Source: Enterobacter kobei (lineage in GTDB: Bacteria > Pseudomonadota > Gammaproteobacteria > Enterobacterales > Enterobacteriaceae). From it: DNA of 64,000 nucleotides. A model generated the notes under the pieces. That model made no database searches, was not told the origin of the DNA, and worked only from the letters and a program-made list of their open reading frames with translations. The stretch covers positions 1,798,001 through 1,862,000 of the forward strand of contig NZ_CP017181.1 in assembly GCF_001729765.1 (NCBI RefSeq). Reading direction: 5' to 3'. Below, piece by piece: positions 30,574-55,569 of the stretch (position 1 is its first letter; every line of letters starts with the position of its first letter). The position numbers were made by a program, and so were the translations under genes.

Positions 30574-30587
30574 TAACGCTGATTATG
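30574..30587. other. attL core repeat (integrase side)
   Basis: TAACGCTGATTATG is identical to 55527-55540. On the minus strand it includes CATAAT, the -10 element of the phoP promoter. It lies 25 bp outside the int stop codon and 36 bp upstream of phoP. Confidence 0.88.
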
Positions 30588-30611
30588 GAGTTTGGAACCA
30601 GCGTCATGAAA

Positions 30612-31901
30612 TTAAATGACTTTTTTAATGCTACCAATGCCTTGGGGGCGTCTTGGGGGCATTGCAGTCGGCATCTGATTGTTCAGCATGTTGACCTGAT
30701 CCTGGTTCATATCTCCGATCCACTTCGAATAAACCTCGTACACCATACGCGCATCCTCATGGCCCATCTGGCTGGCGATAAAGGAAGGGTTAGCACCGGC
30801 CATTAGCGTCCAGCAGGCGTATGTGTGTCGGGACTGATAGGGATTTCTTTCACGTATCCCGGATAGTTTAGTGCCCCGGTTCCACCCATACGAAATCGAG
30901 TTCTTCGAAAAATATCGGTTCTTGCCTGACGTGCACCTCTCAGGAGAAAAAACGAAACGTAGATTTTGCGTTTCGGTTTTGCCAAGTTCCCGATGATGGA
31001 AGATGATTTGCTGCCTGGGACTATTGCCGGTAATTTCGTACTGCTCCTTCAACGCATCAAGGGCAGGCTTCAGCAGAGTGATCGTTCTTATCCCAGCATC
31101 AGTTTTAGGCGGCACAAACAACCCTTTATTCGTCAGGTTTCTGGATACGTGAATTTCACCTTTCTTCAGGTCAATATCCTCCCATGCCAGAGCACAAACC
31201 TCACCTGGCCTCATTCCTGTATGGACAGACACAATAATGATTAAAACCCACTTGCGAGGGAGGAGAGCAATTAACGCATGATACTCATGAAGTAAAAGCG
31301 GATCAGGATCTGCCTTTGATAGCTTGAGCCTCGATACTCCCTCATAAGGAGCGTGTAATATAAACTGGCTTCTGTTCGCAAGCTTCAGCATTTCTGATAA
31401 AACAGCCATCTGTTTATTGACTGTTGAAGGCGCGCGACCTTTTTTGCTCCGATTGGGCATCGAAGGATTAACAACCTCCCCAGTCAGTAGCTCTTTGCGG
31501 TAATTCAGAACATCAGCATGCTGAATATCAACCAGACGAGTGTTCTCGCCCACAACACGCTTAAGGGTATTAACCACAGAGACAATGGAATGCAATGTAG
31601 CTTCTGAGACCTCCAGCGCCTTAGTATCTATAAAAAATTCACATAGATCGTTGAACGTGCCGATTCGTTTAGTTGATGAGAATTTTTTAAGAGCCTTTGA
31701 TTCAGGGAAGCGCGCCGCGTAATCGAACTGGCCGAACTGGATCTCACTCACGATGACGGCGCGAAGGTTTCCCGCCTTCTTGATGTTGCTGCTGTTAACC
31801 ACCCAGCCACGGAGAACTTCGCGGCAGCGAATGCCGCGATAGGTAAACGTGATCCTGATTTTTCCGTTATGAAGCTCAACGCCAGTTGGAAAGTTCATCA
31901 T
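30612..31901 (-). CDS. int: Tyrosine-recombinase phage integrase
   Basis: A 429-aa site-specific recombinase for prophage integration and excision. The N-terminal arm-binding region (about 1-75) resembles the DUF3596-type arm domain (GKIRITFTYRGIRCRE). A SAM-like core-binding domain follows, then the catalytic domain with Arg in HTGMRPGEVCALAW, the second box PYQSRHTYACW, and MGHEDARMVYEVYSKW carrying His and the nucleophilic Tyr. It overlaps xis by 4 nt and is transcribed toward phoP. No terminator is visible after its stop. Confidence 0.95.
   Translation of the reverse strand: MMNFPTGVELHNGKIRITFTYRGIRCREVLRGWVVNSSNIKKAGNLRAVIVSEIQFGQFDYAARFPESKALKKFSSTKRIGTFNDLCEFFIDTKALEVSEATLHSIVSVVNTLKRVVGENTRLVDIQHADVLNYRKELLTGEVVNPSMPNRSKKGRAPSTVNKQMAVLSEMLKLANRSQFILHAPYEGVSRLKLSKADPDPLLLHEYHALIALLPRKWVLIIIVSVHTGMRPGEVCALAWEDIDLKKGEIHVSRNLTNKGLFVPPKTDAGIRTITLLKPALDALKEQYEITGNSPRQQIIFHHRELGKTETQNLRFVFSPERCTSGKNRYFSKNSISYGWNRGTKLSGIRERNPYQSRHTYACWTLMAGANPSFIASQMGHEDARMVYEVYSKWIGDMNQDQVNMLNNQMPTAMPPRRPQGIGSIKKVI
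30642..30660. repeat. Candidate integrase arm-type sites, left end
   Basis: Two direct copies of TTGGGGGC (30642-30649 and 30653-30660), 11 bp apart, lie inside the 3' end of int, 55-73 bp from the attL core. The same octamer recurs near attR (55368-55416), in the same orientation. Tyrosine integrases bind short arm repeats on both sides of the core, so this is the likely role. Confidence 0.55.
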
Positions 31902-32113
31902 GCTTCCTGAATAAATCTATTAATCAGCGGAAAGTTGTACCAGACCAAAGCGCGTTTGCTTTCTCCACCGGGTACCGCGGGTACTCGCTTAAAATGAACC
32001 CCTTCAATCCAGCTTCCGAGGCGATAAGCTTTTATTTGCCTGTCATCCAGCCCCGTTTTCTCAGTTAGCCTTCCCGCCACCATCCACTCTTCATCAAAAA
32101 TGATTTGCGCCAT
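31898..32113 (-). CDS. xis: Excisionase-like protein
   Basis: A 71-aa small basic protein starting MAQIIFDEEWMVAGRLTEK, with the pattern of DUF1233/excisionase-family phage proteins (winged-helix DNA binding, IKAYRLGSWIEGVHF). GGAG lies six bases upstream of the chosen ATG. An upstream ATG four codons earlier is less well placed. The stop overlaps the int start (ATGA), the usual xis-int coupling that lets one transcript direct excision. Confidence 0.82.
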   Translation of the reverse strand: MAQIIFDEEWMVAGRLTEKTGLDDRQIKAYRLGSWIEGVHFKRVPAVPGGESKRALVWYNFPLINRFIQEA

Positions 32114-32174
32114 GCTTAACTCCATGACGCCGCCACGATACCGCAGCGGCAGATAGTAAATTGATTGTCAAAAA

Positions 32175-32414
32175 TCACCGACCAAGCCCGGGGAGGCATT
32201 GCAGATGTCTGGCTCTGGTCATTGCCGTGGCCACATAGCTTCGTGGCCTGTTAACAACCTCGACCGTAATTTTTCTCCCTTGGATCTTGATGGTGTAAAA
32301 AGTCTGTTTGTCGCTGCGGCCATGCTCGCCATATTTCTCAAAATGGCATTTAAGTGCGGCGGCGCATGCTGGCCCGCCGATACGGTCCCCCTTGCTACGG
32401 TTAATCAGACGCAC
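32175..32414 (-). CDS. DUF4060-like small phage protein
   Basis: A 79-aa protein beginning MRLINRSKGDR, with a conserved core KITVEVVNRPRSYVATAMT. I recognise the pattern as the DUF4060 family common in the early-left operon of lambdoid prophages, with no known function. It overlaps the 3' end of the upstream RecE-like gene by 14 nt, so it is part of the same leftward operon. Confidence 0.7.
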   Translation of the reverse strand: MRLINRSKGDRIGGPACAAALKCHFEKYGEHGRSDKQTFYTIKIQGRKITVEVVNRPRSYVATAMTRARHLQCLPGLGR

Positions 32415-55274: not shown

Positions 55275-55325
55275 GATAATTTATGGCGTGGCAATAATAC
55301 GGCGTATAAAAAATTTCCAGTGGTA
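55275..55325 (+). pseudogene. Relic of a second DNA invertase 3' end
   Basis: ATAATTTATGGCGTGGCA and ATAAAAAATTTCC match the invertase gene's 3' end (ATAATTTATGACGTGGCA and ATAAAAAATTTCC, near 49811-49853), with a diverged centre and a 1-bp length difference that breaks the frame. Only about 50 bp is recognisable. Confidence 0.6.
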
Positions 55326-55367
55326 GCAAAAAAATGGATGCGGAATGAGAAGGGGGCTGATGAAAAT

Positions 55368-55416
55368 TTGGGGGCAAATTTGGGGGCAAATTTGCGCTGG
55401 GGGCGTGTTTTGGGGC
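55368..55416. repeat. Candidate integrase arm-type sites, right end
   Basis: TTGGGGGC at 55368 and 55380, with near copies CTGGGGGC at 55397 and TTTGGGGC at 55409 (spacings 12, 17, 12). Same octamer and orientation as at the int end, 110-170 bp from the attR core. Confidence 0.55.
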
Positions 55417-55526
55417 ACTAAATCGGCCTTTATTGTCCGATAATGTCCGTATAGGGATTTGGTTAAGTCTTTGAATTATAACTAAGTTATTGTTATTTAG
55501 ACGGTTGTGATTTTGGCTGTGCAGTC

Positions 55527-55540
55527 TAACGCTGATTATG
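55527..55540. other. attR core repeat (purB side)
   Basis: TAACGCTGATTATG is identical to 30574-30587. Its reverse complement starts with CATAAT, which here sits at correct spacing from the PhoP box. Confidence 0.88.
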
Positions 55541-55569
55541 TTGCCGTGGGGATAAACATTCAGTAAACC
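55535..55569 (-). promoter_or_regulatory. Orphaned phoPQ promoter: PhoP box plus -10
   Basis: On the minus strand: GGTTTA (55569-55564), CTGAA, TGTTTA (55558-55553), then 12 bp, then CATAAT (55540-55535). This is the class I PhoP-activated promoter layout, and it matches the recalled E. coli phoP promoter region (GGTTTA-N5-TGTTTATCCCC ... CATAATCAACGCTAGAC). The prophage separates it from phoP by 25 kb. It now fires into the prophage right end. Confidence 0.88.

Follow-up and report, generated by a model that had tools for sequence, protein, structure and literature searches.

A recurrent Rac-type prophage splits the P1 promoter of phoP in Enterobacter and Citrobacter

The stretch of DNA analysed here (the window) comprises 64 kb of Enterobacter kobei and carries, between purB and phoP, a Rac-type prophage of about 25 kb whose insertion divides the P1 promoter of phoPQ. 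The split structure is real and recurrent. In the explanation that we favour, a clade of Rac IntR-type integrases would use the core of phoP P1, from -10 to +1, as its bacterial attachment site (attB) in Enterobacter, Citrobacter and a third genus. Integration rebuilds the -10 and the leader at phoP, with the attL arm and the integrase gene int replacing the PhoP box and all that lies upstream, and strands the box at attR, the far end of the prophage. phoPQ would thereby lose its direct autoactivation by PhoP, and would be read from int transcripts running into it, from a hybrid promoter under the A/T-rich phage arm, or from both. A phage insertion would in this manner part a regulator under feedback control permanently from the site of its activator. 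Taken as a whole, this explanation, which was drawn from sequence comparison, appears to us moderately probable.

The split promoter and its empty counterpart

The prophage is bordered by two exact copies of a 14-bp att core, TAACGCTGATTATG, at 30574-30587 and 55527-55540. They are the only copies at 0 mismatches in the whole 4.93-Mb genome. The elements of the divided promoter are the following.

30574-30587, minus strand: attL core; its minus-strand reading, CATAATCAGCGTTA, begins with CATAAT, the -10 hexamer being at 30582-30587
55527-55540, minus strand: attR core, bearing the stranded P1 -10 at 55535-55540
55553-55569, minus strand: stranded PhoP box GGTTTA-CTGAA-TGTTTA, a 12/12 match and the sole 12/12 box in the window

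At attR the box, a 12-nt spacer and CATAAT are intact (55569-55535) and point into the prophage. At attL the -10, the start region and the leader remain with phoP, and phage DNA occupies the place of the PhoP box. The box that should lie 12 nt upstream of the -10 has been lost at phoP in the lysogen. A chance origin of the two cores was weighed: both are exact, one adjoins int, and the site is uninterrupted in 45/61 genomes of the genus. The shuffle control for the core was run at up to two mismatches, and at that setting 8 of 100 shuffles gave at least two matches.

The P1 site of E. coli K-12 reads GGTTTA-N5-TGTTTA-N12-CATAAT, with one base fewer inside the stretch that matches the core. phoP P1 of E. 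coli and Salmonella has the same box, 12-nt spacer, CATAAT and leader, which in the lysogen are split over 25 kb. The E. coli P1 leader is 36 nt long according to the available text of PMC3536696, and comparison of K-12 with this published leader places the P1 start 7 nt past CATAAT. The att core ends 8 nt past CATAAT, so that it spans P1 from the -10 through the expected +1; the identification of the core with the phoP P1 core promoter is supported by this comparison. The same text places P2 and P3 upstream of P1 in E. coli, and by reference to that layout P2 would be displaced by the prophage. The E. coli antisense RNA AsphoP (L102 1166-1509) spans the start of phoP and extends to the P1 region, a stretch that lysogens would split.

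Phage att sites at which identity of the core rebuilds the host sequence at one junction form a general class. Unlike these, the phoP element rebuilds the -10 and the start but not the activator site. No codirectional PhoP box of at least 10/12 was found in the 3 kb upstream of phoP. A replacement box in the phage arm was looked for and rejected: the best codirectional candidate in the last 200 nt before phoP scored 9/12, a score reached by 44/300 shuffles, and it lies inside the int coding sequence. GCCCC or TGCCCC repeats lie beside the attL and attR cores in the integrase clade, and TGCCCC also occurs near the int end in several related integrases; these repeats are likely arm-type Int sites.

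Comparison with empty sites supports the reconstruction. The joined flanks of the Citrobacter genome G227 are identical to the empty site of G083 at 519/520 bases. The joined flanks of the window differ from the empty Enterobacter sites of G016 and G020 at 5 and 6 of the central 120 bases, and from the less close L043 and L039 at 10 and 13; the four comparisons give 19 to 70 differences across 370 ungapped bases, length changes included. The direct-repeat core found at both ends equals the attB of the empty relatives. The pattern from box to core, at up to two mismatches, was matched in 53/61 Enterobacter species genomes, and in 44 of these 53 it ends 31-33 nt before phoP. G031 is also empty, with an intact box and one core base missing, and is included in the 45 empty genomes.

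An earlier note on this DNA had placed the att core on the P1 -10, with the full box layout surviving at attR in an orientation facing the prophage and only the -10 and leader left to phoP at attL; all three statements stand. It had also held that an uninterrupted relative must equal the reconstructed attB. The Citrobacter pair bears this out, and the Enterobacter empties come near to it.

Recurrence, decay and inheritance

The search of other Enterobacter for a prophage with the same core, which the earlier note had proposed, found the site occupied in 16/61 species genomes. The integrase gene is full-length in six of them (G000, G014, G018, G033, G034, G044) and disrupted, with the attR box kept, in three (G049, G021, G038); the other seven hold remnants (G022, G027, G028, G030, G037, G039, G045). 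The attL motif, a search for which misses diverged remnants, was found in 9/17 Citrobacter species genomes, and a match to the empty site in the remaining eight. An attR match was obtained in four of the nine occupied Citrobacter, and none at up to three mismatches in the other five. The full attR box could be read in G450, G227 and G458; in G310, whose fetched sequence falls short of attR, the second half-site alone was read. G448 and G449 carry a full-length int with attR not located within 17 kb, and G432, G452 and G455 hold remnants. In a sample of the family the attL motif was present in 6/392 genomes, including G194 of a third genus. In G021 (L101, L092) attL and attR occupy opposite strands, at 1.77 Mb and 2.87 Mb respectively, which likely reflects an inversion through the prophage parting purB from phoP, or an assembly error.

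IMG/VR holds 79 loci with a related int. The arm and core are matched in 42 of these, and all 42 run into phoP. The other 37 gave no match to the arm pattern; 27 of them stop at the int stop codon, and L189, which was read by hand, enters phoP. Many IMG/VR contigs (L130-L206) stop some 748 nt past int, which is where phoP ends, and host phoP is thus counted as viral. Where the DNA downstream of related integrases of at most about 68% identity was read, the arms were different. In E. coli, megablast gave no match for the phoP-side end of the prophage, and 0 of 5,426 genomes had a place covering 80% of int plus attL. No account of a prophage insertion at phoP was found in the open literature, most subscription journals and bioRxiv lying outside the search.

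The history of the site was followed on a FastTree tree of gyrB plus 3 kb upstream for 59 Enterobacter genomes; two empty ones among the 61, G001 and G006, had been dropped for broken gyrB matches. The tree requires a minimum of nine state changes and contains nine maximal all-occupied clades; gains and losses are not separated on it, as precise excision could mimic absence. Six of the remnant species (G022, G027, G028, G030, G037 and G039) form one clade with a local support of 1.0. Five of them share a single collinear remnant of about 0.9 kb and G037 has the same purB-side sequence, so that one insertion most likely decayed in this clade and was inherited. The stranded box decays as well: it scores 10/12 in G432, where its -10 is lost, and 11/12 in G045, where it is cut off from any core. 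No box scoring above 9/12 was found within 330 nt of purB in G452, G455 or the six-species clade.

phoP itself persists. It was located in 61/61 Enterobacter genomes with 0 internal stops, and PhoP is at least 96% conserved. The other occupied loci that were checked have a closed phoP frame of 223 or 224 codons, except G452, described below, and G194, whose fetched stretch ends within phoP. Moreover seven lineages with a broken or missing int keep phoP intact (G049, G021, G038, the six-species clade, G045, G432 and G455). Loss of the box at phoP appears to be mostly tolerated.

The available text of PMC3750022 credits PhoPQ autoregulation with a transcriptional surge when the system is activated and with a broader range of output under strong stimulus. 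In 25 of the 78 Enterobacter and Citrobacter species representatives, about a third, phoP is cut from its PhoP box, and the six-species clade suggests that loss of the feedback may be heritable. Natural pairs of lysogens and empty relatives make the importance of PhoPQ feedback outside the laboratory testable. On a wider reading, the integrase clade would have adapted to a master regulator's core promoter as its attachment site, and decay in place would repeatedly and permanently have made the self-activating phoPQ phage-arm-driven, once in the ancestor of the six Enterobacter species, as a case of two-component regulatory evolution by prophage domestication. We give this wider reading about an even chance.

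Transcription of phoP and competing explanations

The features relevant to phoP expression at attL are listed below (ORF, open reading frame).

29867-30541, minus strand: phoP, intact, with Response_reg and Trans_reg_C domains
30605-30610, minus strand: candidate -35, TTCATG, of the putative hybrid attL promoter, separated by 17 nt from the host -10 downstream
30606-30625, minus strand: A/T-rich phage arm beside the core, with ATTTAATTTCAT at 30606-30617 and small changes across 26 occupied loci
30612-31901, minus strand: int, tyrosine integrase of the Rac IntR type, in the same orientation as phoP; 70 nt separate the end of its ORF from the phoP ORF

No terminator-like site was found between int and phoP on the strand of phoP. 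With so short an interval, the int mRNA should enter phoPQ. A second route is suggested by the junction itself, at which phage TTCATR and the host -10, 17 nt apart, form a hybrid site. A common threshold for sigma-70-like sites was applied to the 500 nt preceding phoP in each of the 26 occupied loci. In 12 loci (the nine Citrobacter together with G014, G021 and G030) the hybrid TTCATA-17-CATAAT, with GATAAT in G030, scores 9/12 and is the only site that passes. The 20 nt above the hybrid site are 75-90% A+T in the 26 loci; across the prophage, a content of 85% or more occurs in 1.2% of 20-nt windows.

Several observations weigh against the loss of feedback or against the hybrid promoter. The remaining 14 loci have no site at the threshold; 13 of them, the window included, score 8/12 at the same place. 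The hybrid -35 matches the consensus at just 3-4 of 6 bases, and such a site is not rare by chance when three spacings are allowed. The -10 reads TGTAAT in G037 and CACAAT in G194, G045 reaches 9/12 only at a spacing of 19, and in G027 the spacer is changed by 1 nt. In the six-species clade, 2/21 columns of the arm vary compared with 21/90 in int fragments (from five of the six species), a proportion that is only suggestively lower; conservation of the arm in intact elements can be explained by recombination. The conserved arm block was rejected as proof of promoter selection, the numbers being too small. An antisense PhoP box of 11/12 lies within int (31411-31427, plus strand), and a noncanonical PhoP site or indirect feedback may act on phoPQ. 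Finally, in both fetched copies of one G452 record (L066 and L117) the phoP frame closes early, at 206 codons, and the C-terminus is altered: detachment may sometimes do harm, or this draft may contain an error.

As a regulator the antisense box is not claimed. It is above chance (9/300 shuffles of 3 kb), but it codes for a conserved peptide and is not present in all remnants. The box is retained in several int homologues.

We consider it possible, though doubtful, that phoPQ in lysogens depends wholly on prophage transcription, either a leftward transcript from the repressor to int or a CII-driven int mRNA, its output following the state of the phage. The genes concerned are these.

31898-32125, minus strand: xis, putative excisionase DUF1233
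35381-35800, minus strand: CI-like repressor (HTH, helix-turn-helix), codirectional with int and phoP
35878-36090, plus strand: phage transcriptional regulator in the cro position
36090-36542, plus strand: CII-like activator

The placing of repressor, xis, int and phoP on one strand agrees with such dependence, as does the 70-nt interval after int, in which no terminator-like site was found on that strand. It is opposed by the seven lineages that keep phoP intact with int broken or gone, and by minus-strand terminator-like sites before and inside int (32130-32107 and 31552-31533), although such sites occur in about the number expected by chance (3 compared with 2.3 in shuffles). The earlier note had predicted loss of direct autoactivation and a possible dependence of phoPQ on readthrough from the int side. 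The anatomy agrees with the loss and with the readthrough; the dependence is not borne out, in view of the same seven lineages, although in an eighth, G452, the phoP frame is broken. The note missed both the recurrence in at least two genera and the hybrid attL promoter as a second route to phoP expression.

Capture of the stranded P1, by which cargo at the right end of the phage would come under PhoP control, seems unlikely to us. In the window the first substantial codirectional ORF past the stranded promoter is the following.

54187-54969, minus strand: DUF2971 / PDC-S31 gene, with its start 600 nt beyond the box

In 8 of 19 attR regions (G014, G018, G021, G450, L211, in which it is broken, L212, L214 and L215) a SRAP-like gene comes first among the substantial codirectional ones, some 350-370 nt beyond the box, and PF02586 was confirmed on the G014 copy. 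G458 has a SRAP-like fragment, and G034 a gene judged TetR-like by eye. However, the remaining attR regions have no consistent gene, and the 19 regions were picked for an intact box. Eight aligned SRAP copies also have a TATACT-like site just before the gene; because this may be their own promoter, capture of the SRAP gene is not claimed. Control of this gene by LexA was discarded, no LexA-like site at up to one mismatch adjoining it. In 4/11 attR regions such LexA-like matches overlap the PhoP box, and the window has one at +505.

We think it improbable, too, that the element is an ordinary intergenic prophage without consequence, other promoters keeping phoPQ output normal. The conservation of PhoP in 61/61 genomes and the persistence of the insertions would fit this, and one large Enterobacter colistin study describes the phoPQ promoter region, in its available text, as highly conserved (PMC9832134), despite the detachment in 25/78 representatives. 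Yet the insertion moves all sequence above the -10 away from phoP, in the window by 25 kb. Moreover, the box is the established PhoP site of the autoregulated Salmonella promoter, and P1 is PhoP-responsive in E. coli (available text of PMC4778762, PMC3536696 and PMC3750022).

The least probable alternative is an active switch, in which conditional excision would restore P1 and phoPQ feedback before reintegration: int and xis are present, and the empty relative that equals the joined flanks attests a precise natural attB, but among the ORFs scanned or listed the window prophage showed no recognisable head genes, the one exact attP pattern had 0 matches in IMG/VR, the genome holds just the two integrated cores, and many occupied genomes have a broken int or none. 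The suggestion of the earlier note that excision could switch the promoter back on is disfavoured on the same grounds. As in active lysogeny, the host gene is disconnected on integration, phoP being detached from its box with a presumed effect on expression. In the mutS-mutL prophage of S. pyogenes, which serves as the model for such a switch, insertion halts transcription of the neighbouring host gene, and the prophage excises and reintegrates with growth phase (available text of PMC5296598). At phoP, in contrast, excision was not observed, and copies that have decayed are passed on by descent.

Relation to Rac and other genes of the prophage

The remaining landmarks of the window are as follows.

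28403-29866, minus strand: phoQ, identified by its position directly downstream of phoP
43006-45936, plus strand: tail-tip ORF, starting in another frame of an HNH-like gene (HNH judged by eye)
55582-55605, minus strand: terminator-like hairpin just past purB
55615-57018, minus strand: purB, 93% identical to the segment that bears the purB annotation in E. coli K-12

The integrase carries PF12167 and PF00589, belongs to phrog_1 and shares 49% identity with intR of phage Rac-SA53. The element resembles the Rac prophage of E. coli in its integrase family and in an exonuclease-like gene, a repressor and O-like and DnaC-like replication genes, the replication genes lying deeper in the prophage. 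The Rac prophage is attached at ttcA. Unlike Rac, the window element has its junction at phoP and possesses the attL arm peculiar to its integrase clade. No head, portal, terminase or capsid genes, as would be expected of a complete inducible temperate phage, were recognised among the prophage ORFs scanned or listed, the profile scan having covered part of them, and the prophage looks defective.

The prophage also carries a QueH (epoxyqueuosine reductase, PF02677) gene at 41083-41757 on the minus strand and, at 39174-40895 on the same strand, an AIPR / AbiU-like candidate defence gene. Right after a DNA invertase/resolvase lies an unusual cargo on the plus strand (50077-53417), consisting of a BCCT transporter and a DUF2254 membrane protein.

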